Part shown: positions 1,057 through 59,771 of the stretch, piece by piece
Position numbering within the stretch: position 1 is the stretch's first letter
Layout of the letters: every line of letters starts with the position of its first letter
Source of the DNA: an uncultured Psychroserpens sp.
Lineage (GTDB): Bacteria > Bacteroidota > Bacteroidia > Flavobacteriales > Flavobacteriaceae
DNA: 64,000 bases
Assembly (NCBI GenBank): GCA_947488655.1
Contig: CANKZZ010000003.1
Coordinates: 496,001-560,000, forward strand
Direction of reading: 5' to 3'
Notes under the pieces: generated by a model
What the model saw: only the letters and a program-made list of their open reading frames with translations
What the model was told of the DNA's origin: nothing
Database searches by the model: none
Translations under genes and position numbers: made by a program

Positions 1057-2484
1057 ATGACTGCATCAGATTTTTACAAACTACTCATAAAAAAGTTTCC
1101 ATTTAAACCTACTTTAAAGCAAACCATTGCTTTAGAGCAATTGTCTAATTTTGTTTTTGACGATTCTCCTAACGTATTATACCTTTTAAAAGGGTTTGCA
1201 GGAACAGGTAAAACGAGTATTACAGGTACTATTGTTGCCAATTTGTGGCATACAAAAAAAAGTGCAATTTTATTGGCACCAACAGGTCGGGCAGCAAAAG
1301 TTATATCTAATTATTCAAAAAAAGAGGCTTTCACGATTCATAAAAAGATTTATTTTCCGAAGAAAGATAGAGGAGGAGGTGTGAAATTTGTTTTACAGCC
1401 CAATAAACATCGCAACACTATATTTATAGTAGATGAGGCATCGATGATTCCAGATGTACCATCAGACTCTAAAGATATTGAAAGTAGCTCTTTACTAGAT
1501 GATTTAATTCGTTACGTATATTCTGGTCATAAATGTAAATTATTACTTATAGGTGATAAAGCGCAATTACCACCTGTAAAATCTGATCTTTCTCCTGCTT
1601 TAGATAAAAGACTTCTTGAGTTAAATTATGATAAGCATGTAACTAGCATTGAATTAGATGAAGTGGTAAGACAAAGTCATGACTCTGGTATTTTAAGCAA
1701 TGCAACTAGAATTAGAGAAGTTATTGAAGAAGATTTTTATGAATCATTTACATTTAATCTCAATGGGTTTGATGACATAGTAAGACTTATAGATGGTCAT
1801 GAAGTTATGGATGCCATTAATGACTCTTATAGTGCAAATGGTCACGAAGACACTGCAATAATTGTTAGAAGTAACAAGCGAGCCAATTTGTATAATCAAC
1901 AAATACGAAATCGTATCTTATTTAATGAGAATGAACTTACTGTTGGCGATTTTTTGATGGTGGTTAAAAATAATTATTTCTGGATTAAGCCAACAACCGA
2001 AGCTGGTTTTATTGCCAATGGAGATATTATTCAGGTTTTAGAAATATTTTCAATTACTACGCTTTATGATTTTCGCTTTGCGGAAGTTAAAGTCCAAATG
2101 GTAGATTACCCAAACATGAAACCGTTTGAAACTGTATTACTCTTAAATACTATTGAAGCAGAAACTCCTTCACTTACCTACGAAGATAGTAATAGGTTAT
2201 ATCAAGAAGTTCAAAAAGATTATGAAGACGAAACGTCTAACTATAAAAAGTTTTTGAAAATTAAGGGAAACAAACATTTTAATGCCTTGCAAGTTAAATT
2301 CTCTTACGCTATAACTTGTCATAAATCACAAGGTGGACAATGGAATACCATATTTGTAGAACAACCTTATTTACCTAATGGTATAGATAAAGATTATATG
2401 AGATGGTTATATACAGCAGCTACAAGAGCCAAAGATAAATTGTATCTTATTGGCTTTAAAGATGAATTTTTTGAGGACCAATAA
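1057..2484 (+). CDS. RecD-like superfamily 1B DNA helicase (AAA family ATPase)
   Basis: This is probably a DNA-dependent ATPase/helicase acting in DNA repair or recombination. Walker A is GFAGTGKT at residues 46-53, Walker B is VDEAS near 125-129, and motif III is GDKAQLPPV at 166-174. The C-terminal UvrD_C_2-type region carries CHKSQGGQW near residue 425 and an AATRAK motif near the end. At 475 residues it is shorter than RecD2 (about 700-800) and lacks the long N-terminal helical region, matching the short RecD-like ATPases annotated in Bacteroidota. Start is ATG. The gene has its own upstream gap of about 220 bases. The helicase family is firm, but the in vivo role is not known. Confidence 0.85.
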   Translation: MTASDFYKLLIKKFPFKPTLKQTIALEQLSNFVFDDSPNVLYLLKGFAGTGKTSITGTIVANLWHTKKSAILLAPTGRAAKVISNYSKKEAFTIHKKIYFPKKDRGGGVKFVLQPNKHRNTIFIVDEASMIPDVPSDSKDIESSSLLDDLIRYVYSGHKCKLLLIGDKAQLPPVKSDLSPALDKRLLELNYDKHVTSIELDEVVRQSHDSGILSNATRIREVIEEDFYESFTFNLNGFDDIVRLIDGHEVMDAINDSYSANGHEDTAIIVRSNKRANLYNQQIRNRILFNENELTVGDFLMVVKNNYFWIKPTTEAGFIANGDIIQVLEIFSITTLYDFRFAEVKVQMVDYPNMKPFETVLLLNTIEAETPSLTYEDSNRLYQEVQKDYEDETSNYKKFLKIKGNKHFNALQVKFSYAITCHKSQGGQWNTIFVEQPYLPNGIDKDYMRWLYTAATRAKDKLYLIGFKDEFFEDQ

Positions 2485-2494
2485 TTTATCCTTC

Positions 2495-3010
2495 ATGAAA
2501 TGTACAATGATCTTATTTTTAATGTTTACAGCTTTTAGCTATGCTCAAAGAGACCGTGTGCCTATAGATAGCATTCATAATAAACGACTATGTACAGTTT
2601 ATCCTGGCATGACCAAGTTTCAAACTATACAAGAATCTTTTGATGAGTCTAAGCTTGTCTTTACAGGTAAAGTTATTGAAGTAATTAGGACAGAAACAGT
2701 AGAGTCTAGCGATTTCGGTTTTGATGAAAACGGAAAAGAGATAGCTCTACATATAGAACCTATATATAACTATTGGTATATTTTTGAAGTGAAGAGGTGG
2801 TTTAAGGGAGATGCTAAAACCAAAAGAGTTAAAATTTATTCAAGAATTTATAGTAATGTCTCTCCATTACTATTGCTTAACAAAAATTACTTAATTTTTG
2901 CTGTAGAAGGAGAGTTGCAAGAATCACCATATATTTATTGTAACGGAAACTCAACTATTTTAGAGTATGCCTCTCAATATATTAAGGAGTTAGAATTAAT
3001 ACATAAATAA
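2495..3010 (+). CDS. Secreted protein with weak NTR/TIMP-like pattern
   Basis: A longer frame starts at 2450 inside the helicase gene, but ATG 2495 begins a good signal peptide (hydrophobic core ILFLMFTAFS followed by YAQ), so I take 2495 (171 residues). The mature part has a C-x-VYPG motif, a VFTGKVIEV strand, a tyrosine-rich YWYIFEVKRWFKGD segment and a late CNGNS. This order recalls the OB-fold NTR/TIMP-like domain found in secreted proteins, with possible cysteine pairing. It starts 10 bases after the helicase stop and its own stop overlaps the next start by one base (TAATG). Exported location is well supported; function is unknown. Confidence 0.7.
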   Translation: MKCTMILFLMFTAFSYAQRDRVPIDSIHNKRLCTVYPGMTKFQTIQESFDESKLVFTGKVIEVIRTETVESSDFGFDENGKEIALHIEPIYNYWYIFEVKRWFKGDAKTKRVKIYSRIYSNVSPLLLLNKNYLIFAVEGELQESPYIYCNGNSTILEYASQYIKELELIHK

Positions 3011-5058: not shown

Positions 5059-5675
5059 CCATTATAGATATTAATACTTGGGAGCGCAAGCAGCATTTTA
5101 ATCATTTTAAATCATTAAAAGACCCTTATTTTGCTGTAACATTTCCTGTAGATGTCACTAATGCTTATCATGTTGCGAAATCTAGTAATGTTTCTTTCTT
5201 CGGAAAATATCTGCACGATTGCATGAAAGCTATAAATGAAGTAGATGAATTAAAACTTAGAATAGAAGGAGATAGGGTCGTTAAATATGATATTATAAAT
5301 GCATCAGCCACATTAATGAGATCTAATAACACATTTGGATTTTCTTATATAGAATTTGATAATGATATAGACCAATTTTTGAGTCATCTCATTTCAGAAA
5401 AAAATAGAATAGAAGCTACCGGAGAATTATTTCCGTTGCGTAACGATTTGCAATGCATTCATTGCTCTGCAATGCCTTGGGTTAATTTTTCGGGACATAA
5501 AGAGCCCGTTTCTGGTGCGATAGACTCTATTCCAAAATTAGCATTTAGTAAGGTTGTTACACAAACTGATGGAAAAATGATGATGAATGTATCCATAAAT
5601 ATAAACCATGCTTTAGTTGATGGTTATCATGTTGGATTATTTACCGAAAAATTCCAACATTATTTAAATAATTAA
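5055..5675 (+). CDS. Chloramphenicol acetyltransferase-fold acyltransferase
   Basis: The 206-residue protein has the CAT-family layout and the catalytic HxxxDG motif HALVDG at residues 185-190. An early TFPVDVT strand and an AMPWVNFSG segment also fit. Classical CAT enzymes are about 215 residues and acetylate chloramphenicol, but chromosomal CAT-like proteins in Bacteroidota usually have unknown substrates. Position inside a Kdo/lipid cluster suggests an acyl transfer to an envelope molecule rather than drug resistance; this is inference. The start ATG overlaps the HAD stop by four bases (ATGA), so the two are translated together. Confidence 0.8.
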   Translation: MTIIDINTWERKQHFNHFKSLKDPYFAVTFPVDVTNAYHVAKSSNVSFFGKYLHDCMKAINEVDELKLRIEGDRVVKYDIINASATLMRSNNTFGFSYIEFDNDIDQFLSHLISEKNRIEATGELFPLRNDLQCIHCSAMPWVNFSGHKEPVSGAIDSIPKLAFSKVVTQTDGKMMMNVSININHALVDGYHVGLFTEKFQHYLNN

Positions 5676-6805: not shown

Positions 6806-7354
6806 ATGAAATGGCTAGCTCAAATTATCTATTTCAAAATATTAGGTTGGAAAGTTACAGGTAACAAAAATTTCTCTCAAGATACCGTTAAAAAAGCGGT
6901 AATTATTGCAGTGCCACACACGAGCTGGCATGATTTCTTTATAGGACTTTATCTTCGGAAAATTACAGGTGTTAGAACCAATTTTGTTGGCAAAAAAGAA
7001 TTGTTTACTTGGCCTTTTGGATATTATTTTAGAGCTGTAGGAGGCGCACCTCTAGACAGAACTTCTGGTCAAAATAAAGTAGAAGCAATTGCAAAGTTAT
7101 TTGAAAATAAAGAAGAGTTTAGATTAACATTGGCTCCAGAAGGTACACGCAAAAAAGTAGAGCAGTGGAGAACAGGGTTTTATTATATTGCTAAAGCTGC
7201 AAAAGTGCCTATAATCATGTTTACATTAGATTTTAAAAATAAGCAAAACCATATTTCTGAGCCATTTTATCCAACAAATGATGTAGATGCAGATTTTGCT
7301 GTAATGAAAGCTTTTTTTAAAGATGTTGTTGGTAAAAAGCCAGATTACTCTTAA
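6806..7354 (+). CDS. PlsC-like 1-acylglycerol-3-phosphate acyltransferase family protein
   Basis: A 182-residue membrane-associated acyltransferase. The catalytic HX4D motif is HTSWHD (residues 38-43) and the phosphate-binding motif is APEGTR near 113-118. A hydrophobic N terminus probably docks the enzyme on the inner membrane. It is shorter than housekeeping PlsC (about 240), matching the small acyltransferases common in Bacteroidota, which may act on phospholipid, ornithine lipid or other acceptors. The ATG is two bases after the oxidase stop, so the two genes form one transcript, ending at a hairpin at 7370. Confidence 0.85.
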   Translation: MKWLAQIIYFKILGWKVTGNKNFSQDTVKKAVIIAVPHTSWHDFFIGLYLRKITGVRTNFVGKKELFTWPFGYYFRAVGGAPLDRTSGQNKVEAIAKLFENKEEFRLTLAPEGTRKKVEQWRTGFYYIAKAAKVPIIMFTLDFKNKQNHISEPFYPTNDVDADFAVMKAFFKDVVGKKPDYS

Positions 7355-7395: not shown

Positions 7396-7647
7396 ATAAG
7401 ATGCTATCAAAATATAGACGAACCAAAACTTATTAATTACTCAACGTTTGAATGTGCAAATTTTTACTTTGGAAATAGGCATAACGTGCAAAACCGAATT
7501 ATAAATTACATCCAAACAGATTCCTCTCAAAATTTGAGCTATACGTAGACACAAATTGTAGACGTACTTAAGGCGATAAAATTTCCGAAGAGATTAAAAA
7601 ACGCAATATTTCTACCACAATTTCAATAAAAATTATGTTAGAGAAGC

Positions 7648-9835: not shown

Positions 9836-11905
9836 CTAGTACATACTCTTAATCTTCCTTAATTTATCTTCCCAAATAGATAAATTCTTTTTATGGTTAT
9901 TAACGTTTTTAATTACATCTTTTACTAATGGGTTGTTCTCATCTACATTAGAGAAAAACTGCATATTGTTCTCTAATTGATTGATTTCTCCTTTAATCTC
10001 ACCAATTTTCTTTCTAATAAAATTTTGTTCGTTATCTAACAATCTCGTATCACCAGGTTGAGCAAGATTTTCGATTTTGTTTTCAAACTTTATCATTTCT
10101 AATTTAGCTCTATCCATATCTAGTTTGCCAAACAAACCATCTAAAGCCTTATTAAATTTACCGTCAATGTAGCGTTTGTTTGAAGGGACATGTCCTATGG
10201 CTTTCCAAGCTGCTATTTTTTCTTTTATAGTAACAATATCTTTTTTAGAATCGCCAGACAATTCTAAATCATTAACTTCTTTAAGCAAAATGTTTTTTTG
10301 CTCATAAGCAGCCATTAACTCTTTGTTGGCCTCGTCGCGTTCTGTATTTAATCTATCAAAATAAGCATTACAAGCGCTTTTAAACTGTTTCCAAATTTTG
10401 TCGCTATCTTTTCTAGGGACATGACCAATTTTTTTCCAATCTCCTTGTATTTTCTTCATCAAAGGAGTAGTTGCTGCTAAATCTTCATTATCCTTATTGT
10501 CTAAGGCAATTTGAATTAGAGCTTTCTTTTTCTCTAAATTATCATATTGATCCTTTTTAAGATTTTTATAGAACGCGTTTTTTTGACGATTAAAAGTTCT
10601 TACAGCATCTTTAAATTTTGCCCAAGTAGCTTCATTTGCTTTTTGTGGTACTTTGCCAGCTTTAAAAAATTCTTCTCTTAATGTTTCTACAGTTTTAATT
10701 TTCTTTTGCCAAGAACTGTGTGCATTAGTAGTATCATTAGAGATCGCAGTAATTCTAGAAATAATTTCCTCTTTTACTTCTAAATTTTTCTCACGAGCTT
10801 TATCTAAATTAGCGTAATACCCTTGACGCTTATCATGTATAGTCTTTGTTGCATTACTAAAACGTTCCCAAACTTCATCTCTATGCTCTCTAGAAACAGG
10901 ACCTAATTCCTCTTTCCACATTTTATGTAAAACCTGTAATTCTCTAAATGAACGATTGATATTATCATCTGCAGCTAATTCTTCTGCACGTTCTATAATT
11001 TTTGTTTTTTGTTCTAAATTATGTTTAAAATCTAAATCTCTAAGATCTCTATTTAAGTGCAATACATCATAAAAGACTTCTACATTATGATGGTAAGAGT
11101 TCCATGCATTGTTGTAACGATCTCTTGGTATTGGTCCAGCATTACGCCATTGTTCTTGTAAATCTTTAAAGGTCTTGTAAGTTGTATTAATGTTTTCTTC
11201 ATCATTAACTAAACCTTTTATTTTCTCTATAATTTGTAATCTATTGTCTAGATTTTCTTTTAAATTATTTTCACGTTGCTTGTAATAAGCTCCTAAACTA
11301 TTTCTATAAGACTTAAAAAGGTTATTAAATTGTTTTTTAATAGGAGACGTGTAGTAAAAGTCTATCTCATTGCCACCTTCGCTCAAAAACTCTTCCTTTT
11401 TTTCGTCTAATAAAGCATCAAATTTTGCATTAAATTCAGTTTTAATGTCTTCAACCTGAGACTTAATGTTTTGTACTTTATGATTTTCTATAAGTTGCTC
11501 AAACTCCTTAGTCAATTCTTCCATTGACATAGAGTGGTACTCTTTAGATTCTAAAGTGTGGCGCTCTTCATTTTCTTCATCTTCGGCATCCTCAGCATTA
11601 GACTCATCAATTTCCTCAACGTGTGCATCTGTTTTATTTTCAATAGTTTTAGATGCGTCATTGTCATGATTATTTTCTGGCGTTTCGCTAAGAGCCTTCT
11701 CATCTTCTTCTACCACGGTATTAGTAACTTCGCTAGTAGTTTCTACAGGTTCCTTAGCAACGTCAACAACTTCAACTGTAGTTGTATTGTTTTCTTCGGA
11801 AATTTGCTCACTCGCAATTTCAGATTTCTCTGTAGTTTGAAGCGTTTCGTTAGATTTTAATTCTTTGTTTCCATCTGCATCTTGCAGGTTATCATTCTCA
11901 GACAT
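9836..11905 (-). CDS. DUF349 repeat protein
   Basis: A 689-residue soluble protein. The first about 120 residues are acidic and Glu/Thr-rich (low complexity). The remainder is helical with about five DUF349 repeats, each showing a W-x(5)-G-x-VP/IPR/K pattern followed by W..F (for example WRNAGPIPRD, WKKIGHVPRK and WKAIGHVPSN). Repeats of this type occur in proteins annotated as chromosome-segregation-like coiled coils, but no mechanism is established. The charged, helical composition fits a cytoplasmic scaffold. A TTG-N19-TATCTTAG promoter lies about 27 bases upstream of the ATG. Confidence 0.88.
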   Translation of the reverse strand: MSENDNLQDADGNKELKSNETLQTTEKSEIASEQISEENNTTTVEVVDVAKEPVETTSEVTNTVVEEDEKALSETPENNHDNDASKTIENKTDAHVEEIDESNAEDAEDEENEERHTLESKEYHSMSMEELTKEFEQLIENHKVQNIKSQVEDIKTEFNAKFDALLDEKKEEFLSEGGNEIDFYYTSPIKKQFNNLFKSYRNSLGAYYKQRENNLKENLDNRLQIIEKIKGLVNDEENINTTYKTFKDLQEQWRNAGPIPRDRYNNAWNSYHHNVEVFYDVLHLNRDLRDLDFKHNLEQKTKIIERAEELAADDNINRSFRELQVLHKMWKEELGPVSREHRDEVWERFSNATKTIHDKRQGYYANLDKAREKNLEVKEEIISRITAISNDTTNAHSSWQKKIKTVETLREEFFKAGKVPQKANEATWAKFKDAVRTFNRQKNAFYKNLKKDQYDNLEKKKALIQIALDNKDNEDLAATTPLMKKIQGDWKKIGHVPRKDSDKIWKQFKSACNAYFDRLNTERDEANKELMAAYEQKNILLKEVNDLELSGDSKKDIVTIKEKIAAWKAIGHVPSNKRYIDGKFNKALDGLFGKLDMDRAKLEMIKFENKIENLAQPGDTRLLDNEQNFIRKKIGEIKGEINQLENNMQFFSNVDENNPLVKDVIKNVNNHKKNLSIWEDKLRKIKSMY

Positions 11906-11985: not shown

Positions 11986-12726
11986 TTAAAAGGTTGTATT
12001 CCAAATTTTCCAAGCTTTTTCGGCTTGAAACTCTAGCATTTTTAAACCATTACAAATATCTGCACCATTAGATTTGCCTAGTTTTAAAAATTTTGTTTCA
12101 TCAGGATTATAAACCAAATCAAATAAAAAATGCTTTTTGGTAATCCCATCGTAAGGTATGTTTGGGCACTCTTCAATATTTGGATATGTACCAACTGGTG
12201 TGCTATTTATAATAAAGGTGTAATCATTTAAAATTTCCGAAGTTAATGTCTCATAGGTGAATTTTACTCCTTTTCTCTTGGCTCTAGAGACGTATTCAAA
12301 TTTGATATTTAATTTTTTAAGCGTGTAGGCAATAGCTTTAGAAGCGCCACCTGTACCTAAAATTAAAGCTTTTTTATGATGTGGTTTTAAAAAGGGTTGA
12401 ATAGACTTTTTAAACCCGTAGCAATCTGTATTATACCCTTTGAGTTTTCCATTTTTATCTATAGTAATAGTATTTACAGCACCTATTTTCTTTGCTTTTT
12501 TATTAAGACTATCTAAATAAGGAATAATGTCTTCTTTGTATGGTATGGTAACATTAAAGCCAACAATTTTGTTGTTTTGGGTGATGAGTTGTTTAAATTC
12601 TGAAATGTGCTGCAAATCAAAATTCTCGTAAGTAAAAGGAAGATTTTGCGCTTCAAACTTAGTTTTAAAATATCCTCTAGAGAACGAGTATGATATATCT
12701 TTACCTATTAATCCTAATCTATTCAT
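11986..12726 (-). CDS. aroE: Shikimate dehydrogenase
   Basis: Reduces 3-dehydroshikimate to shikimate with NADPH in aromatic amino acid synthesis. The substrate-binding serines are in ISYSFSRGYF (residues 11-20), the catalytic lysine is in NVTIPYK near residue 64, and GAVNTI, GYNTDCYGF and the nucleotide loop LGTGGASKA follow. Length (246) is on the short side but typical of the Bacteroidota form. The start ATG overlaps the end of the upstream DUF368 gene by eight bases, so aroE is co-transcribed with the DUF368 pair. Confidence 0.93.
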   Translation of the reverse strand: MNRLGLIGKDISYSFSRGYFKTKFEAQNLPFTYENFDLQHISEFKQLITQNNKIVGFNVTIPYKEDIIPYLDSLNKKAKKIGAVNTITIDKNGKLKGYNTDCYGFKKSIQPFLKPHHKKALILGTGGASKAIAYTLKKLNIKFEYVSRAKRKGVKFTYETLTSEILNDYTFIINSTPVGTYPNIEECPNIPYDGITKKHFLFDLVYNPDETKFLKLGKSNGADICNGLKMLEFQAEKAWKIWNTTF

Positions 12727-17581: not shown

Positions 17582-19392
17582 TAATTCCCTTCTTTTATTA
17601 AAGGTTTTATACTTTTAGTTGTTAAGCTTTTATTTGGTCTAGCTGTTGTAGTAGTTGGTTTTGGCAATTGTCTACCTGCTTTATTAACTTCGTCTTTATC
17701 TCGTTTACCAGCTTTTTCAATACGATTTAAGAGTGCTTCATCAATAAATTCTTCATCTTCAACATAGGGATCTAATCCTTTTATTACTGGTAATTCTAAA
17801 GGTGGATCTTCGCTAAATAAATCTTCAACGCTTAAAGGTTGTTCTTCTCCTCGCCAATCAAATCCTCTAAATTTTCTTGCATTCTTCGGAAATAGGCTTT
17901 CGGGATAAATCTCGCCATCTACTTGATTTAATAGTGTAATAACTTTATATGGTCCATCAAATTGAAGATTAATACTACCCGATTTTGATTTATTTATACC
18001 AACTAATGTATCGTTATCATCTCTACTGTAGAAAATAATTTCGGCATTTTTAATAATATCGACATTATAAAGTTCATTATTTTCAAATAAGCCAATTAAC
18101 CTTTGTCCTTTTATTTGATTAAATCCATCACCTAAGGTGTCTTTACTTATTAAAAAGGCGTTATTAAAAACTTTTAGAGAGTCTAGCTCTTCCTTTTCAA
18201 CATTAGAAATTAAGTGTATAGAATCTCCTGTCATTTGATTGCCCAAATTCCATATAACCGGTTTTCTCTTTATAGAAAATGCGTCTCCGGTATTAAAACG
18301 TTTTAGATTTATAAGTTGAGTAAGCCCTGTTTTATGATCAGCATGAATAGAATCTGCCTTACCGCTCATATCACTTTTATACATTTTAGCGTTATAATAT
18401 GCTCTCGTGATGCGATGCTCAGGCTTACCTGTAACCATTAATGTATCTGCATGAATATATAGCGAATCTTGTTCTTGAACAGTTATTGCTAATGCTCGTT
18501 TGGTTATAAAAACCGAATCTTTAGCTCTAAATACTTCGGCATAATGACCTTTTATAATGCTTTTATTAATAGTATCAGTTACCACAATATTATTAGTGGC
18601 AGATGCAAAACTTTTATTTCTATCAAAATAGAGACTATCTCCTTCAACAATACGATTATCGTAATTAATTCTTGAATTTTTAATAAAATACCCAATATCA
18701 TTATTGGTATCATAAAAACCACGCTCAGAATAAACTTTACTAGTTTCTCCTGTAATTGTAGATGGACCATACATGTATGCATGGCCAGTTTCAGAATAAA
18801 AATCAAGCTGATTAGTTTCTAGTGTATATTGAGGATTCACTAATATTACATCTTTAAGAAAACGATATTTGCTATCATTCATATAATATCTACCAATCTG
18901 GCTTGTAATTGTACCAGATGAATCTCTTACCACTTTACCTGTAGTATTATAATAAGCCTGTTGCTTGGTACGATCAAAGTAAAGTGTATCTGTAGTAAGC
19001 GTAGATTGAGGCTCAGTTAAAACAACATCACCAGCAGCAAATGCCAGTTGTGTAATACCACTATACTCGACATAATTAGAGGTCATATTTATAGTATCGC
19101 CTTGTTTAACTCTAACGTTACTGTAGGCTTCTATAAAATCTTCGTTCTGATAATATAAGGCCTTATCGCACCACATATCTACACCTTCGTGTACAATATG
19201 TATTTGACTTTGATCACTGCGTACAAACGTGGTTATATTTTCTCCTTTTAACGAATCTTTTACGGTAAAGCCAGAATATTCTATATAGATTTTCTTTGGT
19301 TGTTGTGAATAGGAGAGTGCTGCTGTAAAACAGCAAAGTAAAATGAGTATATATCTAGATGTTATATTCAAGTCAAAATTATTTTGATTCAA
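17581..19392 (-). CDS. Large OstA/LptA-like periplasmic protein
   Basis: A 603-residue exported protein: signal peptide in residues 1-29 (IL-rich core, SYSQ cleavage region), then repeated OstA-type beta strands (VRVKQGDTINMTSNYVEYSG, LTTDTLYFDRTKQ, ITGETSKVYSERGFYD). The repeats resemble the beta-jellyroll slices of LptA/LptD-N that carry lipopolysaccharide across the periplasm. It is far longer than E. coli LptA (185), as is usual for Bacteroidota OstA-like proteins. A basic, Pro-rich tail ends it. The frame opens after a TAG only three codons upstream and no ATG precedes the signal peptide, so TTG 19392 is taken as start. Confidence 0.82.
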   Translation of the reverse strand: MNQNNFDLNITSRYILILLCCFTAALSYSQQPKKIYIEYSGFTVKDSLKGENITTFVRSDQSQIHIVHEGVDMWCDKALYYQNEDFIEAYSNVRVKQGDTINMTSNYVEYSGITQLAFAAGDVVLTEPQSTLTTDTLYFDRTKQQAYYNTTGKVVRDSSGTITSQIGRYYMNDSKYRFLKDVILVNPQYTLETNQLDFYSETGHAYMYGPSTITGETSKVYSERGFYDTNNDIGYFIKNSRINYDNRIVEGDSLYFDRNKSFASATNNIVVTDTINKSIIKGHYAEVFRAKDSVFITKRALAITVQEQDSLYIHADTLMVTGKPEHRITRAYYNAKMYKSDMSGKADSIHADHKTGLTQLINLKRFNTGDAFSIKRKPVIWNLGNQMTGDSIHLISNVEKEELDSLKVFNNAFLISKDTLGDGFNQIKGQRLIGLFENNELYNVDIIKNAEIIFYSRDDNDTLVGINKSKSGSINLQFDGPYKVITLLNQVDGEIYPESLFPKNARKFRGFDWRGEEQPLSVEDLFSEDPPLELPVIKGLDPYVEDEEFIDEALLNRIEKAGKRDKDEVNKAGRQLPKPTTTTARPNKSLTTKSIKPLIKEGN

Positions 19393-19511
19393 AAATAACT
19401 ATTATCTCTTCGGAAATATCTGCCTTAACAGATTTTTAGTAGATTTTTTTAAGACCTAGCGATTATAATCTGAGAAGTATGATGTTTTTTAAGAGATTTA
19501 CTGAGTGTATT

Positions 19512-37551: not shown

Positions 37552-37887
37552 GCTTCAAAAATAAGTATTTTTTAGACCTAAAGTAAACAGTATTTAGTGA
37601 AGTTGGTATCCTGCTTTTCGTTTTAGCTTTTGTGCCAAAAGGCTACCACTACAATCAGGAGTAGCGAGAGAGATGGCTTTGTTTAGCTAAATCTTCGAAT
37701 CATGAGATTCATTCATGACATAACACTTATGAAAATTAAATATTATAGATATCTCTTAGCTTTAAAAACCTTCAAAGATATTTAAGCTAGTTGAACTACA
37801 ATTTGTAACTTCGCAAAAGAAATAAACAGTTGATGTTTCCGAAGAAAGAGAAAGGAAAATCAGTTTGATTTTAAAACAATATTAAAT
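37552..37887. other. Intergenic region with a G+C-richer block, small hairpins and one TTTCCGAAG copy
   Basis: Divergent spacer between DUF3810 and pepD. From about 37605 to 37690 the DNA is richer in G and C than its surroundings, and two overlapping short frames are open, without starts. TAGCTTTTG (37624-37632) can pair with CAAAAGGCTA (37636-37645) with one bulge. TTTCCGAAG lies at 37836-37844, 44 bases before the pepD start. TAACTTCG near 37806 could be a weak -7 box for pepD. No tRNA or known RNA was recognised. Confidence 0.4.
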
Positions 37888-44454: not shown

Positions 44455-46868
44455 TATTTACTAGGGTTTAAAGTTTGTGTAGCTATAATTTTATCTGTCG
44501 CAGTGGTACTTTGCATAAAATTTAATTCGTGATATTTTCCAATTGCCCAATCATCTACAAAATTATCATAGTAGACACTACCAGGATTTCCAGATTGTCC
44601 GCCAGGATAAATCCCTAATGCTTTTGGTGGCGAACTCATTTCTACAATCATTCTCCAAGAAGGACCATGAGTTTCAGACGTTGCATTTACAATACTTGCG
44701 TCTCCACCTATAGGTAAATTATATCTAGAAAAAGCAGGTATACCTTGTAATAAATGATCAACTCGAGTGCTTTTATAGGCTTGCCAATTATAGTCGCCAT
44801 TTTTAGATTTCCAGTCTAAAAGTTCTTTGGCTGCTTCAATAAATGAGAGTAAAAACAAATCGTGAGCGTCTTCTTTTTTGGATGTAGCAATGATATCCAT
44901 AAAAGGATCGTTAGGTTTATTTGTCATCAAATAAATCGACTGATACGTGTAAGGAGAGGTCAACGCTTCTTCATCACTTTCAAACTCATCCCAAAGCATT
45001 GGATATAATTTAGACCACCATACTCTCCATATACTTGGACCTAATTTTTCAATATCATTATTAAAATCCCAAGACTTTATTTGATTGTAAATCTTTTTTT
45101 CTTCGGAAGTTAAATCACTCACATCCATAGTCTCAAACATATAAGGTAATAACTCAGCAGCTTTTAAATTGTAGTTATTATTATGAAGGTTTTTAAAATC
45201 TTCAACAGAAAATTTATCCTTAGAATTAAAAAAGTCATTAATCACTCGATTTCTATACGTTTCATATCCGTCATTAAACACATAAAAAGGATAACTTTCA
45301 TCAACAGGATGCTGATTTGCAGAACTTACAAAACCACGTTCAGGATTTTTTGTGTGAGCATTAAATGCTTGCGGAATGTAACTTTGCCAATCATGATCTG
45401 GATTAGAACCATCCAATAAAAATTTACCTTGACCTTTCCATTTATTAGGAAATAATCCTTGAATCCATATGGCAATATCACCTTGAGTAGAAGCGAATAC
45501 AAAATTTTGAGCAGGAGCAGTGTAATGTTTAATTGCATCAACGTAGTCGTCGTAACTTTTAGCTTTATTTAAATCTAAAAAAGGTCTTTGATTATTTCCT
45601 CCAGCGTGTCCTATCCATTTCATTGCATAACCAGCTTTCTCATTATCACTCATAAAATTATGATCGTAAGTAACAGGACCATGATGTGTATAAATTACAG
45701 AGTCTAATACGGTTGCAGCACCTTTTATTTTAATTTCTTCAACACGAACAGTTGTATTTTTCCAACCTCCATCATATTTGTATTGTGTTCTCGTTTCGTC
45801 TTTAAATTCAATTTTATACCAATCTAACACATCACGAGTCGCATTAGTTTCTCCCCAAGAAATATGCGTATTAAATCCTGAAATCACACCTAAAGCTCCT
45901 GGTAAAGTTGCTCCCATTGCATTATGCTCTGGTGTACTTAATTGCATAACAAACCAAATAGAAGGTAGTTTTAATCCTAAGTGTGGGTCGTTGGCAAGTA
46001 TTGGGTTTCCGGTTGTAGATTTAGCTCCAGATACAGCCCAATTGTTACTGCCATTGTCTGGATGTGGTTTTACTATAGTTTTTGTAATCGTGTCTTGTGG
46101 TAATTCGCCTTGAGGCGTTTTAGTCATGTCAACGTCAATATAACTCCAATCTGTTTCCTTCGGAATTATTGGATCATTAACATCAAAAAAGTCAGGAAAA
46201 AGGAGATCAAAACGCTCTTTTCCAAATTTGCGTAGCATATTAGTGTATTCTAAATCATCGTCTCCTCCAGCCAACATTTTTGTCATATACATAAGCAAAA
46301 GCGCTGTTTTTTTTGTGGTCCAAGGTTCTGGCTTATAGTCCAATAATTTGTATTCTACTGGTAAGTTTTTAAGATCTAACGATGCGATGTAATCGTTAAC
46401 ACCATCACGATAGGCTTCCAAAAAAGTAACTGTTTCAGGGTCTTCTTGCATCTTTATTAATGACTGGTCTGCACCAAATCCCATACCTCGTCTACGAGCA
46501 GTTTGATCATAAGTTAGTCCGTCGCTTCCTATAATTTCAGATATACGTCCTGCAGCAGCATGTGTTTGAAATTCCATTTGCCACAAACGATGTTTTGCTG
46601 TTATATAACCCTGTGCTTTGTATAAATCTATATCATTTTGAGCAAAAATATGTGGAATTAATTGTGCATCATAATGAATGGTTACTGGAGCAGACAACCC
46701 TTTGATATTCACATTTCCGTCGATAATTTCATTAGTTTCATTTTGCCACACACCACCTGCAGGATTTAAAAATTTACCTATTGGAGGCACAGCACCTAGT
46801 TTAGTATTGAGTGCATAGAACACAACAATTGTGAGCACAAAAGTTATGAGTAGTTTAATGTATTTCAT
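44454..46868 (-). CDS. Penicillin acylase (Ntn hydrolase) family protein
   Basis: An exported or membrane-anchored 804-residue precursor. An N-terminal hydrophobic segment (about 4-24) is followed by an alpha-subunit region (IPHIFAQNDIDLYKAQGY; RLWQMEFQTHAAAGRISEI). Cleavage would expose the N-terminal nucleophile serine in GSNNWAVSG near residue 275, after which beta-subunit motifs occur (NDPHLGLKLPSIWF; GVISGFNTHISWGETN). The family cleaves amides such as beta-lactam side chains and acyl-homoserine lactones, so quorum-signal degradation is possible. Substrate cannot be decided from sequence. Confidence 0.93.
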   Translation of the reverse strand: MKYIKLLITFVLTIVVFYALNTKLGAVPPIGKFLNPAGGVWQNETNEIIDGNVNIKGLSAPVTIHYDAQLIPHIFAQNDIDLYKAQGYITAKHRLWQMEFQTHAAAGRISEIIGSDGLTYDQTARRRGMGFGADQSLIKMQEDPETVTFLEAYRDGVNDYIASLDLKNLPVEYKLLDYKPEPWTTKKTALLLMYMTKMLAGGDDDLEYTNMLRKFGKERFDLLFPDFFDVNDPIIPKETDWSYIDVDMTKTPQGELPQDTITKTIVKPHPDNGSNNWAVSGAKSTTGNPILANDPHLGLKLPSIWFVMQLSTPEHNAMGATLPGALGVISGFNTHISWGETNATRDVLDWYKIEFKDETRTQYKYDGGWKNTTVRVEEIKIKGAATVLDSVIYTHHGPVTYDHNFMSDNEKAGYAMKWIGHAGGNNQRPFLDLNKAKSYDDYVDAIKHYTAPAQNFVFASTQGDIAIWIQGLFPNKWKGQGKFLLDGSNPDHDWQSYIPQAFNAHTKNPERGFVSSANQHPVDESYPFYVFNDGYETYRNRVINDFFNSKDKFSVEDFKNLHNNNYNLKAAELLPYMFETMDVSDLTSEEKKIYNQIKSWDFNNDIEKLGPSIWRVWWSKLYPMLWDEFESDEEALTSPYTYQSIYLMTNKPNDPFMDIIATSKKEDAHDLFLLSFIEAAKELLDWKSKNGDYNWQAYKSTRVDHLLQGIPAFSRYNLPIGGDASIVNATSETHGPSWRMIVEMSSPPKALGIYPGGQSGNPGSVYYDNFVDDWAIGKYHELNFMQSTTATDKIIATQTLNPSK

Positions 46869-47694: not shown

Positions 47695-48126
47695 TTATTT
47701 AGATTCTAAGTTTAAATCTAAAGGTTCGTAACGTTTATAAATATACACATCTTTATTGGTATTATTGACAATTACCAATTGAGTTTCGTTAGCATCTAAA
47801 ATAGTCTCTTTCCACTCAGCATAAGGTGTTTTATAATAGATGTTTAAACTATCATTTTCAATTTTAATATTAAAAAGTTCTTTATCTTTAGATGTTTCAA
47901 AAGTACCCATCAAATTTGGTTTTAATTTACTTCGGAAACCAGACAAGCTATCAGTTACTTCAATATAATCAATAGTGTCATTAAAATTATAGTCTAATTT
48001 ATTACCATTACCTTGAATAACTTCGTCAATCTCCCAATAACCATCTAGATGAGAAACAAAGGTTTCAGGGTTTGAAGAACAACTAAAAACCGATATAAGG
48101 AATACTATAAATACATGTTTTTTCAT
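47695..48126 (-). CDS. Small lipocalin-like lipoprotein
   Basis: Signal peptide ending in a lipobox (VFSC, Cys at 16). The 127-residue mature part has a [13 protein letters not shown] opening and paired beta strands ([38 protein letters not shown]), typical of small lipocalin-like lipoproteins in Bacteroidota. The ATG overlaps the recF stop by four bases (ATGA), an odd coupling of an exported lipoprotein to a DNA repair gene. Function unknown. Confidence 0.78.
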
Positions 48127-49202
48127 AATTTAAATATTTTATAAGATTGATGTATTTGTTTAACCACATTTTCGGTACGCTCAGCATGTGTATCACTTAT
48201 AAATAATTGACCAAAATCATCATTATCTACTAGGCTAATTATTTGAGCTACACGATTCTCATCTAATTTGTCAAAAATATCATCTAACAATAGGAGTGGA
48301 GTTACACCACTCTGTTGTTTAATAAAATCAAATTGAGCGAGTTTTAAAGCTATTAAAAAAGATTTTTGCTGACCTTGACTACCAAACTTTTTAATAGGAT
48401 ATGTTTCTATCTCAAAATTTAAATCGTCTTTATGAATACCCACACTTGTATACTGTATAGCTTTATCCTTATTAACATTTTTTGCGAGTAAAGTTTTTAA
48501 ATCGTCTGTAAATAAATCACTCTTATAGTTAAGGTTTACTTCTTCATTATTATTACTTATAGCTTTATATCTTGACTTAAAAATAGGGATGAAGGTTTGT
48601 AAAAATTCATCTCTAGTTTTAAAAATATCTGTACCATAGGTGTTTAACTGCTCATTGTAAACTTCTAATGTTTGCGCATTAAATGTATTATTTAATGCAA
48701 AATATTTTAACAAAGCGTTACGTTGCGATAGCACCTTATTGTAATTAATTAAATTATTGAGGTATGTTTTATTGCTTTGTGAAATTACACTGTCAATAAA
48801 TTTACGCCTAGTATCACTTCCTTCTATTATTAAGTCACGATCTGCAGGAGAAATAATTACTAATGGTATGAATCCAATATGGTCACTAAATTTATCATAG
48901 GCTTTCCCGTTACGTTTAATGACCTTTTTTTGACCACGTTTTAAAGAAATAACTACTTTTTCAGTTTTGTCGTTTTTATCAAAAATACCATCTACAACAA
49001 AAAAGTCTTCATTATGTTTAATGTTTTGGGACGCAATAGGGTTAAAGTAACTTTTTCCGAAGGATAAATGATAGATTGCATCCAATGCGTTTGTTTTACC
49101 AACACCATTAGAACCGACAAAACAGTTAATTTTAGTATCAAAATCGAAATTTTGCTGTTCAAAATTTTTATAATTAACTAAGCTTAACGTGTTTAATATC
49201 AT
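48123..49202 (-). CDS. recF: DNA replication and repair protein RecF
   Basis: A 359-residue SMC-like ATPase that with RecO and RecR loads RecA at single-stranded gaps. Walker A is [13 protein letters not shown] (residues about 30-42), the signature motif is [19 protein letters not shown] near 272, and Walker B is [13 protein letters not shown] near 303. The N-terminal [11 protein letters not shown] and length are as in the family. Divergent from the TPR-protein gene. A lipoprotein gene overlaps its end, and dnaA/dnaN are not nearby. Confidence 0.95.
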
Positions 49203-50580: not shown

Positions 50581-50894
50581 GATTTTATTATTTTTCTCAC
50601 CACTTTGTAGGTATTAGCTACGTACTTGTGACTATGTTTTTCCTCGGAATTTTTAAATCATTAAAGTTTAGGCTATTTTTTAATTATAGTCAAACACTGT
50701 ATTTGCTTGTGCTTTAAATAGCATTTAAATTTTGACATTTTCCGAAGAATAAAAAAAACAGTTTATTTTCTTAAGAGTTACTATATACCTTAATGTCATT
50801 ACTAGAGATATTTAATGTTAACATTTTTTAGCATTCAAAGTAGCGGTTTTCCTAGTAAATTCTGTACTTTTGATATCATAAGATATGTATATTA
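50581..50894. other. Intergenic region holding a promoter and one TTTCCGAAG copy
   Basis: No gene is supported; a T-rich frame of 48 codons (50574-50719) lacks any recognised content. TTTCCGAAG lies at 50739-50747 and a related TCCTCGGAA at 50641. A perfect -7 box lies at 50865. No riboswitch-like structure or terminator with a T-run was found after ribH. Confidence 0.45.
50865..50872 (+). promoter_or_regulatory. -7 box upstream of the small-protein/mutL unit
   Basis: TACTTTTG is identical to the ndk -7 box and lies 22 bases before the GTG start at 50895. No TTG at the expected -33 spacing, so strength is uncertain. Confidence 0.5.
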
Positions 50895-51407: not shown

Positions 51408-53266
51408 TGGCAGACATTATTCAATTGTTACCAGATCATGTTGCTAATCAAATTGCAGCAGGTGAAGTTGTACAGCGACCAGCATCGGTTGTAAAAGAAT
51501 TATTAGAAAATTCTATTGATGCAGGCGCAAACTCTATAAAATTAATTATTAAAGATTCTGGTAAAACTCTTATCCAAGTCATAGATAATGGTAAAGGTAT
51601 GAGTGCTACAGATGCACGATTAAGTTTTGAGCGTCATGCGACGTCTAAAATACGATCTGCCGATGATTTATTCAGTCTTAATACTAAAGGCTTTCGAGGG
51701 GAAGCTTTAGCGAGTATAGCAGCCATTGCTCATGTAGAATTAAAAACAAAGCAGGAGCAGGACGAGCTTGGTACACTTATAGAGATAGAGGGAAGTACTA
51801 TAAAAAATCAAGAAGTTACCGTAACACCAACAGGCACATCATTATGTGTAAAACACCTGTTTTATAATATACCTGCCCGACGTAATTTTTTAAAATCAAA
51901 TAACGTAGAGCTTCGTCATATTGTAGACGAGTTTCATCGTGTGGCACTTGCGCATCCCGATATTGAATTTGTAATGTATCATAATGGTAGCGAGAGTTTT
52001 AATCTTCCAAAAAGTAATTACAGACAACGTGTGGTTAATATCTTCGGAAATAGAACTAACGAAAAACTGGTTCCTGTTGAAGAAGAAACTGAGGTGCTTA
52101 AAATATCAGGATTTGTAGGTAAGCCAGAATTTGCAAAGCGTACAAGAACAGAGCAATTTTTCTTTGTTAATAATAGATTTATCAAAAGTCCATATCTCAA
52201 TCATTCTATAAATTCGGCATTTGAAGGATTAATGAAAGATGGGAGTCATCCTAGTTATTTTTTAAATTTAACAGTAGATCCAAAAACGATTGATATAAAT
52301 ATTCATCCTACAAAAACCGAAATTAAATTTGATGATGAACACACACTGTATGCAATCTTACGCTCTGCAGTAAAACATAGCTTAGGCCAATTTAATATAG
52401 CACCAGTGCTAGACTTTGATAGAGATAGAAATTTAGATACGCCTTATGAGTTCGAAAATAAACGAGTTTCTACACCATCGGTAGAAGTAGATAAATCTTT
52501 TAATCCATTTCAAGAAGAAAAATCACCAAGTAGGTCTAATGGTTCATTTTCAAATTATAAAAAAGAGCCAGTAGCGCAATGGGAAAGTTTATATGTTGGT
52601 CTAGAGTCTAAAAGCACAAAAACCGAAACAGATTTTAGTGAAGTACGATTTGAAAGTGAGCCCGAAACAACATCATTATTTGATAATGATAAACAAGTAG
52701 AAACCTCACAAACTACCTACCAATTACATAATAAATATATTATAAGCACCATTAAATCTGGAATGATGATTCTAGATCAGCATAGAGCTCATCAAAGAGT
52801 TTTATATGAAGGTTTACTTAAACATTTAACGGTTAAAGAATCTGTTAGTCAGCAACTTTTGTTTCCTTTAAGTTTAGAGTTCACATCGTCAGAAATGGAA
52901 ATACTTCAAGGGTTAAAGGAAGATTTAGAACATACAGGTTTCATATTTTCGGTGTTTAAAGAAAATGTTATTGAAATTACAGGAGTGCCAATAAATGTTC
53001 CTGAGAGTGAAGTATCAATTATTTTAGAACAACTTATTAGCGATGTTGAGCAGGAAGTACCAGATAGTAATTTTAGTGCTACAGATTTGTTAGCAAAATC
53101 AATGTCTAAAAGTTTAGCAATAAAAACAGGACAAAATTTAACACGTTTTGAACAAGAACATTTGGTAAATAGTTTGTTTGCTTGTAAAGAACCAACCGTT
53201 TCTCCTACTAATAAAGTCACTTTCATAACCATGAGTGTTGATGACTTTGATAAAAAATTTATATAA
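51407..53266 (+). CDS. mutL: DNA mismatch repair protein MutL
   Basis: Coordinates mismatch repair after MutS recognition. The GHKL ATPase N-terminus is complete: LPDHVANQIAAGEVVQRPAS, ELLENSIDAGA (catalytic Glu, ATP Asn), DNGKGM, and TKGFRGEALASIA. A transducer domain and an acidic linker (about 345-440) lead to the C-terminal domain. The endonuclease motif DQHAx2Ex4E reads DQHRAHQRVLYE near residue 457, with Gln in place of the central Glu. Length 619 is typical. It is translated with the preceding small gene, and the rhomboid genes follow within four bases. Confidence 0.96.
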   Translation: MADIIQLLPDHVANQIAAGEVVQRPASVVKELLENSIDAGANSIKLIIKDSGKTLIQVIDNGKGMSATDARLSFERHATSKIRSADDLFSLNTKGFRGEALASIAAIAHVELKTKQEQDELGTLIEIEGSTIKNQEVTVTPTGTSLCVKHLFYNIPARRNFLKSNNVELRHIVDEFHRVALAHPDIEFVMYHNGSESFNLPKSNYRQRVVNIFGNRTNEKLVPVEEETEVLKISGFVGKPEFAKRTRTEQFFFVNNRFIKSPYLNHSINSAFEGLMKDGSHPSYFLNLTVDPKTIDINIHPTKTEIKFDDEHTLYAILRSAVKHSLGQFNIAPVLDFDRDRNLDTPYEFENKRVSTPSVEVDKSFNPFQEEKSPSRSNGSFSNYKKEPVAQWESLYVGLESKSTKTETDFSEVRFESEPETTSLFDNDKQVETSQTTYQLHNKYIISTIKSGMMILDQHRAHQRVLYEGLLKHLTVKESVSQQLLFPLSLEFTSSEMEILQGLKEDLEHTGFIFSVFKENVIEITGVPINVPESEVSIILEQLISDVEQEVPDSNFSATDLLAKSMSKSLAIKTGQNLTRFEQEHLVNSLFACKEPTVSPTNKVTFITMSVDDFDKKFI

Positions 53267-55931: not shown

Positions 55932-56091
55932 ATAGATATAAGGTTTTCAGCAATCAGTAGCTTATTCACAATTAGATTTTTTCTCAGAGTTGTAAAGTTG
56001 CAAAGCTTAATTAGATAGTATTAATTTTTCCTTCGGAAATATTAAAATTTAATAAAATGTGATTTAAAATTTTTATCAAATAACAATCACA

Positions 56092-56400: not shown

Positions 56401-57020
56401 TACAGATTTAGGGTTTGAGATTTAAGATATAACTCTGTATTTGGGCCTTCATTAAATAACAAATCTAAAATGCTTAGATTATTTAAAAACCCATGTTTAT
56501 CGTCAAACACTTGAGCGTATGATGTGAAATGTTGTGTAATTTCTTTTCTACTATTTGCTAATGGTCTTGCATCTTGACTATTTTCTAGTTCTATTTCAAA
56601 AATAGATGTTGTAGAATACTCAATTGAAAGTTGCATACATTCAAATATAAGCTCTATACTTCTTAAGTTGAATGCCATAATGGTTTCAAATTCCGAAGTA
56701 AATAAAGGCATTAAATCATCAATGTAAAATTCATAAAATGGTGATGTGCGATAAGCAGATTCTAAAGATTTTAAGTGTTGGGTTTGCCAGTTTTCAGAAT
56801 TAAAAATCTTTACATCTTTGTAGAGTTGTCTGTTTTTTTGGGAATAAATTACAGGTACATTTAAGTCTAATCTTCCATTAGCTCCATAGATAGATGTACG
56901 GTTTCTATAAGTTTGTTTTTGATAGTTATCACAAACTTCAAATACAATATGATTTGCGTGTAACATAGCGACAAAATGCGCCACATTTGGAAAATATGTT
57001 GGATGAAGTACGCTATTCAC
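56400..57020 (-). CDS. WbqC family protein
   Basis: A 206-residue soluble protein with the WbqC-like plan: PTYFPNVAHFVAML near the start, then FEVCDNYQKQTYRNRTSIYGANGRLDLNVPV, then WQTQHLKSLESAYRTSPFYEFY. WbqC homologues occur in O-antigen and other polysaccharide loci, though no reaction is firmly established. Start GTG, as no ATG occurs upstream in frame before the conserved PTYFP. It is coupled to the DUF6122 gene and lies 24 bases past a small hypothetical gene. Confidence 0.85.
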   Translation of the reverse strand: MNSVLHPTYFPNVAHFVAMLHANHIVFEVCDNYQKQTYRNRTSIYGANGRLDLNVPVIYSQKNRQLYKDVKIFNSENWQTQHLKSLESAYRTSPFYEFYIDDLMPLFTSEFETIMAFNLRSIELIFECMQLSIEYSTTSIFEIELENSQDARPLANSRKEITQHFTSYAQVFDDKHGFLNNLSILDLLFNEGPNTELYLKSQTLNL

Positions 57021-57044: not shown

Positions 57045-57323
57045 TTAGTTATCCTGATTTACTTTTTCGTTGTTTTTATTATATTTTTTATGCGTAACAT
57101 TTTTACTTTCTAAAATAGCATAAAATTTACGAGGTGATATTTTTAAGTCTTTGGTAATATCACTAACTTTTTTCTTTCCTTTTTTGTAGAGTTTTAAATT
57201 TTTAGAGACTTCTTTATTGAAATAATAATCTTTAAGTTTATCTAGAACTTCAGTTTCAGTAAGGTTAGAATCGCTTGCATAGCTTTCTAACACCGATTTG
57301 ACATTAGTTAAATTAGTTTTCAT
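57045..57323 (-). CDS. Small hypothetical basic protein
   Basis: A 92-residue, lysine-rich soluble protein. The middle reads KKVSDITKDLKISPRKFYAILESK, where the spacing resembles a helix-turn-helix (helix, turn at ISPR, recognition-like helix KFYAILESK). This could bind DNA or RNA, but no family is recognised. It is set apart from lepB by a 107-base gap upstream, where no clear promoter was found. Confidence 0.5.
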   Translation of the reverse strand: MKTNLTNVKSVLESYASDSNLTETEVLDKLKDYYFNKEVSKNLKLYKKGKKKVSDITKDLKISPRKFYAILESKNVTHKKYNKNNEKVNQDN

Positions 57324-57430
57324 ATTTATAATTATTAGAGAGATTTAGTGACATAATTGACACTTAGAAAAATTAGAAAATTTAATGATTGACAATCTTC
57401 TATTCAATTATAAATTTAAGAAAAATCTAA

Positions 57431-59005: not shown

Positions 59006-59069
59006 GTCTCTTATTTAATTTCTTTAATGAGTTATAAAGTATTTGCTAATGTTACATTAAAATATAATA

Positions 59070-59771
59070 TTAACTAATATTTAATACATCTTTCATTGTA
59101 AATACGCCTGTTTTATCATGTACAAACTCTGCTGCTATGACAGCGCCTAAAGCAAAGCCTTCTCTACTATGAGCAGTATGTTTTATTTGGATACTATCTA
59201 CTTTAGACTCATAGTTTATATCATGAGTTCCTGGCACATTTTCTATACGCTTTGCTAAAATACCAATCTCATTTTGTTTTGGCGTATCTAAAGTCCATTT
59301 TTCATAATTAGTTTGGTCAATAATTTCATTTGCCAATGTAATTGCTGTTCCGCTTGGTGCATCTAATTTTTGTGTGTGGTGAATTTCTTCTACGGAAATT
59401 TTATATTGTGGAAGCTTAGCCATTAGTTTAGCTAAGGTTTTATTAAGTTCAAAAAATATATTAACACCTAAACTAAAATTAGAGGCATATAAAAATGTAC
59501 CTTCTTTAGCTTTACACAAAGATATAACCTTATCATAATCATCTAACCAACCTGTAGTACCAGATATAACTGGGACATTTGCTTCTAAACATTTAGAAAT
59601 ATTCGCAACTGCAGATGTAGGTAGACTAAAGTCTATGGCAACATCACAATTTTGAAGATCGAAAGTTTCCGAAGTACTTGAAACTTTTAGTGTAATTTCG
59701 TGGCCACGGTCTAGCGCAATGGTTTCTATTGCTTTTCCCATTTTTCCGTAGCCTAAAAGTGCAATTCGCAT
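59070..59771 (-). CDS. dapB: 4-hydroxy-tetrahydrodipicolinate reductase
   Basis: Reduces the dapA product with NAD(P)H in lysine and diaminopimelate synthesis, so it feeds peptidoglycan. The nucleotide motif GYGKMGKAI is at residues 7-15, VISGTTGW near 73-80, and the catalytic EEIHHTQKLDAPSGTA near 137-152. At 233 residues it is the short Bacteroidota form. It starts one base past the DUF5683 stop, within the parA-parB-DUF5683-dapB unit. Confidence 0.96.
   Translation of the reverse strand: MRIALLGYGKMGKAIETIALDRGHEITLKVSSTSETFDLQNCDVAIDFSLPTSAVANISKCLEANVPVISGTTGWLDDYDKVISLCKAKEGTFLYASNFSLGVNIFFELNKTLAKLMAKLPQYKISVEEIHHTQKLDAPSGTAITLANEIIDQTNYEKWTLDTPKQNEIGILAKRIENVPGTHDINYESKVDSIQIKHTAHSREGFALGAVIAAEFVHDKTGVFTMKDVLNIS

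Follow-up and report, generated by a model that had tools for sequence, protein, structure and literature searches.

Why is the nine-letter word TTTCCGAAG repeated so often in the DNA of an uncultured Psychroserpens sp. of the Flavobacteriaceae? The question was raised by a stretch of 64,000 nucleotides (C3:496001-560000, hereafter the window) of a genome of 3.6 Mb in 20 contigs (G000). MutL loci put this genome close to Psychroserpens within the family, with 87% MutL identity to an uncultured Psychroserpens. In the window 21 exact copies were counted, 10 on the forward and 11 on the reverse strand, each at the place given in a preliminary description of this DNA, while 100 dinucleotide shuffles of the window contained a mean of 0.29 and a maximum of 3 copies. 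The whole genome holds 864 copies (428 forward, 436 reverse) and 51 copies of the reversed word (25 and 26); what looked like a change of strand along contig 1 is an artefact, as these whole counts show. Five near-copies matching eight of the nine letters had also been described. Our count of copies with one mismatch was 16 instead, giving 37 places with no or one mismatch (shuffle mean 11.7), and the five were probably the NTTCCGAAG sites that appear in Table 1 as ATTCCGAAG and CTTCCGAAG. As set out below, the behaviour of the word suggests that it most likely works like a DNA uptake sequence, and we do not file it as a proven member of that class.

Base composition and codon use fail to account for the excess of TTTCCGAAG. 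Once the word and its commonest variants had been masked in the training DNA, Markov backgrounds (order 2 to 5) predicted 0.06-0.31 copies in the window, where 21 were seen, and 1.07-1.71 copies in a 464 kb sample of the same genome (the window plus the 20 contig 1 stretches L001-L020, each 20 kb long), where 110 were seen. An unmasked order-6 model expects 95 of these 110 copies, because it was trained on the word itself. Sixteen of the exact window copies are coding, as previously counted (open reading frames, ORFs, of at least 100 aa), and the other five fall between ORFs. Synonymous shuffling of codons yielded 0.33 coding copies in the window (maximum of 300 shuffles 3, seen 16), 2.05 in the 464 kb (maximum of 100 shuffles 6, seen 86) and 4.43 in 420 kb sampled from G006, a complete genome of the same genus (21 stretches, L021 and L112-L131; maximum 14, seen 127). 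Markov, codon and peptide explanations were therefore rejected, since masked models and synonymous shuffles leave the excess unexplained. Counts near the Markov expectation, or an excess vanishing under tetranucleotide and codon modelling, had been named beforehand as outcomes that would speak against the word; neither was found.

The word is preserved at matching places in near relatives. The window was aligned to the orthologous stretches of six chosen congeners, and copies of TTCCGAAG were scored, with other 8-mers of equal G+C content and a central CpG as control. Intact copies were found at 20 of 24 aligned sites in G009 (control 14%), 9 of 13 in G018 (15%), 14 of 22 in G016 (13%), 10 of 13 in G006 (13%), 9 of 22 in G005 (9%) and 4 of 14 in G003 (9%), with binomial P values for conservation over control from 7e-14 to 0.03 across the six. 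Conservation centres on the nine letters and on an A that follows three bases further downstream. Among the four nearest relatives, the letters of TTTCCGAAG were 0.89-0.99 identical and this A (position +10) 0.99, and the other columns averaged about 0.78 (range 0.62-0.89; +8 0.81, +9 0.76). Third codon positions in four close relatives were 0.83-0.94 identical in word sites versus 0.57-0.62 elsewhere, and of the 56 site bases outside coding DNA in these relatives, drawn from only seven site comparisons, all 56 were identical. Synonymous shuffling, third-codon-position identity and non-coding site identity thus lend good support to the earlier reading, in which selection acts on the word at the level of DNA and not as a peptide or a codon preference.

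The site extends beyond the nine letters on one side. Among 155 aligned TTCCGAAG copies of G000, A occupies the first four positions after the core in 67, 72, 80 and 61% of cases and is more weakly preferred on to the ninth position; no matching T-tract was seen on the other side of the core in these copies. The same one-sided A-rich tail was found in G006 (256 copies), and a weaker one in distant word-rich taxa (127 copies from 35 loci, in which the reversed core occurs 20 times). Single substitutions within TTTCCGAAG were in clear excess in both G000 and G006 at letter 1 (A, C), letter 5 (C to T) and letter 7 (A to C or T), and in G000 also at letter 6 (G to C, 19 vs 4.1) and letter 3 (T to G, 8 vs 1.2), with little or no excess at letters 2, 4, 8 and 9. 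The consensus is HTTCCGHAGnnA, where H stands for A, C or T, and the A-rich tail lies on one side only. Tolerance is mainly confined to a few positions, as for protein contacts.

All 23 genomes of the genus that were examined, G000 included, contain the word, from 110 copies in G020 (control 65) to 1347 in G006 (control 51). A genome was called word-rich when TTCCGAAGAAA occurred at least 40 times and at least three times as often as its reversed control, a definition set after the counts were known. By this definition 28 of 249 Flavobacteriaceae genomes sampled are word-rich, representing 25 of 235 genera; G000 has 526 copies and 3 of the control, and other examples are 390/17, 341/13, 331/13 and 315/10. 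The remaining genomes of the family lie mostly near control level, some being intermediate, and G023, G128, G197, G200 and G280 (at least 40 copies, ratios 2.4-2.8) were left out of the 28. In a sample of the class comprising 295 genomes, 286 of them outside the family, only G477 (42/0) passed the threshold outside the family. On MutL trees, word-rich genomes are found in several groups (the genus of G000, relatives of Christiangramia and Zunongwangia, a large group containing UBA3611, and others) with word-poor genera between them, and a 52-genome MutL sample needs 3 to 4 changes of word state. An old word lost many times would be the simpler reading of this pattern.

Several word counts are recorded here as observations in their own right. 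In MutL loci of about 22 kb, TTCCGAAG occurred 12 times in Christiangramia portivictoriae (L074), 9 times in a metagenome-assembled genome of Zunongwangia (L082) and 12 times in UBA3611 (L096), and its reversed control 3, 1 and 1 times. A second kind of repeated word, ATCGATCGAT, was present 6 times in each of the MutL loci L083 and L086 (expected 0.1). In two Flavobacterium loci (L109, L110), ACTTGAAAC and AACCTGAAAC were in excess within 22 kb, which could reflect a repeat or another genus-level word. CATCTGGATC, found 14 times in about 85 kb of G014 (L022-L025, L154; expected 0.2), is probably a repeated coding motif. Lesser over-represented words in the 464 kb of G000 were TCTAATCCTG (16 vs 2.2 under an order-4 Markov model), TACAGAGCC (18 vs 2.8) and TCAAGGTAC (15 vs 2.3). 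The G006 sample contained the strong G+C-rich words CGCCAGGGCAGG and GAGCCACCGAG as well as TAGTCTTTAGTC, all probably tandem repeats, and TAATCCTG was without polarity in that sample.

Uptake, with which the word had been compared from the outset, is the best-supported function, judged by how the sequence behaves. We consider it on balance probable that TTTCCGAAG is a DNA uptake sequence, with a core and a 3' A-tract as in the uptake signal sequence (USS) of Haemophilus. In natural transformation, the cell would prefer DNA of its own kind through the sequence-specific site HTTCCGHAGnnA; biased uptake and recombination of word-bearing fragments would spread and preserve copies genome-wide, and copies would so be kept at the same places in near relatives, in either orientation. 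The reader would be the uptake machinery. A natural candidate is the pilus-free system of Riemerella, in which a DUF5689/DUF5017 surface protein and an adjacent CarboxypepD_reg outer-membrane protein would receive the DNA before ComEC, DprA and RecA act on it.

For Neisseria and H. influenzae, DNA import by type IV pili is described (PMC7965970). A strong match to the PilB/PilT-type ATPase family (PF00437, E < 1e-60) was found in 49 of the 249 family genomes and was absent from 24 of the 28 word-rich ones, among them G000; a type IV pilus is therefore unlikely to be the reader. An association of the word with type IV pili was rejected as well, as strong matches were present in 4 of 28 word-rich and 45 of 221 other genomes; a 25-bit match in G287, over the curated cut-off, was counted as not strong. 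The preliminary description had proposed a look at com and pil genes, and these gave a divided answer. ComEC is present in G000, as in 225 of the 249 genomes (27 of 28 word-rich, 198 of 221 others), while type IV pilus machinery was represented in G000 only by a weak PF00437 match (E 6.5e-4), other pilus families not having been searched. DUF5689 was found in 228 of 249 genomes (27 of 28 word-rich, 201 of 221 others). The word-rich genome without it, G246, is 68% complete, and its ComEC and PF00437, not being among the matches listed, were counted as misses.

In Riemerella, natural transformation with a distinct machinery is described (PMC8459023): competence of R. anatipestifer is reported to need ComEC, DprA, ComF, RecA and a DUF5689/DUF5017 protein, together with an adjacent CarboxypepD_reg outer-membrane protein and helix-hairpin-helix and DUF1343 proteins. 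In R. columbina, adding an equal quantity of own DNA is reported to cut transformation by half, an effect that the same quantity of DNA from R. anatipestifer or E. coli did not have (PMC7965970). Of the R. anatipestifer machinery, ComEC and an adjacent pair with the DUF5689 and CarboxypepD_reg domains are present in G000. On contig C1 (locus L237), a 476-aa DUF5689 protein, with a DUF5017 match of 26.3 bits just under the curated cut-off, lies beside a 957-aa CarboxypepD_reg protein, which has no barrel-domain match of its own and would be a barrel by analogy.

If the pair reads the word, the type of pair should follow the word. In a first tree of full-length CarboxypepD_reg proteins (11 word-rich, 27 word-poor), all 11 word-rich proteins fell into one clade together with one word-poor long branch, and the genus of G000 stood beside distant word-rich genera, whereas MutL sets it among word-poor ones. 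After 17 more had been added, that clade held 23 of the 28 word-rich proteins and 1 of the 27 word-poor ones. The 28 word-rich proteins of the tree differ from the 28 word-rich genomes (G003, G006 and G009 are in, G005, G102 and G246 are missing), and the word-poor set of 27 was picked, not randomly, among the DUF5689 matches listed. The candidate receptor pair tracks the word only in part, and one genome, G009, contradicts it.

This contradiction belongs to a group of results that weigh against an uptake function or against the proposed reader. Of the relatives, G009 stands nearest by RelA (98%); it has 1134 copies of the word, and yet its pair (C11:13501-20500, L339) is only 58% (barrel) and 30% (DUF5689 protein) identical to that of G000. 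From this divergence, lineages seem to exchange this surface pair. For G009 that leaves a recent swap of the pair, a second barrel unseen there, or a different protein as the reader. Together with G009, the word-rich G212, G140, G123 and G161 lie outside the clade, and correction for descent on the MutL tree (a tree without G009, G106 and G123) left 3 independent pairs and no significance. As a determinant of the word, the type of CarboxypepD_reg protein did not clearly hold up: it looked perfect with 11 proteins and had five exceptions with 28, and the descent-corrected pairs were too few. We do not claim a reader, because G009 contradicts the pair and the descent-corrected pairs lend no support. 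The presence of ComEC or DUF5689 also failed to separate word-rich from word-poor genomes (P about 0.5). Conservation at orthologous places, clear in near relatives such as G009, falls off in more distant congeners: the RelA loci (5 kb each) of 22 congeners kept 6 of 36 aligned window sites intact, which is close to control, and seven named MutL loci kept 2 of 27. Conservation fades with distance, and the word is therefore preserved among near, word-rich relatives and not genus-wide.

Further points on this side concern the word itself. No clear dialect word was seen in word-poor relatives, in loci of 4-22 kb with low power. The density of 0.24 copies per kb compares with about 1 per kb for the USS and for the DNA uptake sequences (DUS) of Neisseriaceae, and a second AT-rich segment, as in the USS, is lacking (columns beyond +16 are near background). 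Spacing of the copies is approximately random, even spacing having been looked for and not found, and copies show no bias to gene ends, unlike what is reported for Pasteurellaceae. In the Riemerella study, the k-mers given are all A/T-rich and no uptake word is identified among them (PMC7965970); they are the top three per length by raw count, which makes this a weak test.

One stretch is poor in the word. L129 (G006:C1:3420001-3440000, GC 0.377), one of the 21 stretches of G006, contains 2 copies against an expectation of about 12.7 (P 3e-4, without correction for the number of stretches, 21). Among 10 of its 13 ORFs that were scanned are genes for efflux proteins, a ParB-like protein, TauE and rhodanese/metallo-beta-lactamase proteins, and it looks like accessory, acquired DNA. 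As a single case, it fits a word that marks resident DNA.

Of the alternatives to an uptake sequence, a binding site of a chromosome protein inside the cell (a nucleoid protein, a repair protein or a domain organiser), dense, unpolarised and selected site by site, survives best, and we hold it to be unlikely. A DNA-binding protein would suit the conservation of sites in near relatives, the fixed A three bases downstream and the A-tract, and neither the lack of strong clustering along the chromosome nor the presence of the word in every genome of the genus examined is difficult for it. About 900 separately selected sites would be needed, however, in all kinds of genes, copy number differs twelvefold within the genus, and 221 of the 249 family genomes fall below the threshold. 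Because copy number varies and most genomes of the family do not reach the threshold, such a site would be odd as a housekeeping chromosome function.

A Chi-like signal that tames a nuclease of the RecBCD/AddAB type and so protects self DNA would also be a dense, short, genome-wide and lineage-specific word, yet we regard it as improbable. Chi sites tend to follow the direction of replication. When the G006 sample was divided by eye into two halves according to the GC skew of its 21 stretches, the orientations of the word were 64/66 and 60/66, with no Chi-type bias; no replication polarity was seen in the G000 and G006 stretches sorted by GC skew, and no strict polarity towards the terminus, as in FtsK-orienting polar sequences (KOPS), in the G006 sample. 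The objection to a polar signal of the Chi or KOPS type, first raised for the window, thus holds in 420 kb of a complete congeneric genome. The word is moreover not G-rich and has a one-sided A-tract.

An asymmetric 9-mer with a contact-like pattern of tolerance would also suit a self-mark in methylation or defence, the word being recognised by an enzyme and its presence sparing self DNA. Restriction targets are usually avoided and not multiplied, and restriction systems change fast, whereas here the word is multiplied and 25 genera share the excess; this reading appears very improbable to us.

Within genes, 165 copies are in sense and 194 in antisense orientation, with no transcription polarity (P 0.14); coding copies occur in several frames and both orientations, frame 0 being rare in both, and there is a mild enrichment between genes (13.5% and 12.5% of copies vs 7.6% and 8.2% of length). 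A by-product at the RNA or coding level, be it a terminator hairpin with a CTTCGG tetraloop, a peptide motif or a codon preference, deserves next to no credence, since in spite of a possible short hairpin (TTTC-TTCG-GAAA) and the intergenic enrichment the copies are mostly coding in both orientations, synonymous shuffling abolishes the excess and refutes codons and peptides, and the hairpin was rejected on this coding share and on the conservation pattern, its partners at +8 and +9 not being conserved while +10 is, and the A-tract having no T-tract partner.

Returning to the uptake sequence, a wider proposal can be made, which is possible and in our view rather doubtful as a whole: that Bacteroidota have an uptake sequence of their own, independent of those of Neisseria and Haemophilus, read by the outer-membrane pair of the flavobacterial transformation machinery (SusC/SusD-like by analogy) in place of a type IV pilus, the one nine-letter word persisting across many genera and being lost repeatedly in close relatives. 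As far as we are aware, uptake sequences have been described in two families alone, Neisseriaceae and Pasteurellaceae, both of which use type IV pili. The matches listed in open PubMed Central full text, which does not cover preprints, included none that reports such a word for Flavobacteriia or Bacteroidota. If true, the proposal would make a third, independent case, in another phylum and in genomes seemingly without a pilus motor, and genome-wide self-tagging for DNA exchange would evolve with different import machines. The word would provide an oligonucleotide handle for finding the outer-membrane DNA receptor of Flavobacteriaceae, besides a practical way to transform marine flavobacteria. 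Its patchy presence, with 110 to 1347 copies within a single genus, would let the spread and decay of such words be followed as in a natural experiment.

The copies of the word and its variants in the window are collected in Table 1.

Table 1. Exact copies of TTTCCGAAG and variant copies in the window (positions of the window, strand and context)
Word	Position	Strand	Context
TTTCCGAAG	1354..1362	+	inside UvrD_C_2/AAA_30 helicase ORF, presumably RecD2/Pif1-like
TTTCCGAAG	5198..5206	-	coding, CAT-family acetyltransferase ORF
TTTCCGAAG	6953..6961	-	coding, acyltransferase ORF
TTTCCGAAG	7582..7590	+	between ORFs
TTTCCGAAG	11794..11802	-	coding, DUF349 ORF
TTTCCGAAG	12234..12242	+	coding, Shikimate_dh_N ORF
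TTTCCGAAG	17884..17892	-	coding, OstA-like ORF
TTTCCGAAG	19408..19416	-	between ORFs, just upstream of OstA-like ORF
TTTCCGAAG	22218..22226	+	coding, RelA/SpoT ORF
TTTCCGAAG	24649..24657	-	coding, M48 peptidase ORF
TTTCCGAAG	26132..26140	-	coding, SpoU methylase ORF
TTTCCGAAG	26254..26262	+	coding, SpoU methylase ORF (its second copy)
TTTCCGAAG	30974..30982	+	coding, large ORF with Por_Secre_tail
TTTCCGAAG	34789..34797	-	coding, amidohydrolase ORF
TTTCCGAAG	37836..37844	+	between ORFs
TTTCCGAAG	47930..47938	-	coding, 143-aa ORF without Pfam match
TTTCCGAAG	49054..49062	+	coding, RecF/RecN/SMC N-terminal-domain ORF
TTTCCGAAG	50739..50747	+	between ORFs
TTTCCGAAG	52042..52050	-	coding, MutL ORF
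TTTCCGAAG	56031..56039	-	between ORFs
TTTCCGAAG	59666..59674	+	coding, DapB ORF
ATTCCGAAG, variant (tolerated first letter)	25350..25358	+	
ATTCCGAAG, variant	39337..39345	+	
CTTCCGAAG, variant	45101..45109	-	
ATTCCGAAG, variant	46158..46166	-	
ATTCCGAAG, variant	56690..56698	+	
TTTCCGTAG, tolerated-variant type	28899..28907	-	less certain as functional copy
TTTCCGCAG, tolerated-variant type	41951..41959	-	less certain
TTTCCGTAG, tolerated-variant type	59390..59398	-	less certain
TTTCCGTAG, tolerated-variant type	59743..59751	+	less certain
TTTCCGCAG, tolerated-variant type	62465..62473	-	less certain

Among known systems, DUS and USS share with the word an excess beyond composition and coding, strand parity, occurrence in several frames and sharing by related species. 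Chi and KOPS are over-represented short words too, but the word described here is without orientation bias. In the Neisseriaceae, the comparison involves ComP, a minor pilin. Their DUS GCCGTCTGAA and its dialects are described as short, massively over-represented, varied across the family and associated with ComP (PMC3630211), and the Neisseria DUS as being without a flanking AT-rich motif (PMC1626085). Alike are the short, massively over-represented word and its family-wide sharing; here, in contrast, the same word is used across distant genera, and the word-poor loci, with their low power, gave no clear dialect. With Riemerella the likeness lies in the adjacent pair of G000, which by domains and adjacency alone has the plan of RA0C_RS04915/RS04920 (PMC8459023), and the difference in the DUF5017 match under the cut-off and in the k-mers given for Riemerella, from which no uptake word was identified (PMC7965970). 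The USS of H. influenzae, AAGTGCGGT, is described as a 9-bp core with an AT-rich motif directly 3' of it, present in high copy number and common to related genera (PMC1626085). Its core is unrelated to that of the word, and in G000, which has no strong PilB/PilT-type ATPase, a pilus route seems unavailable; alike are the 9-bp core, the 3' AT-rich segment (in G000 and G006), the high copy number and the sharing among related genera.

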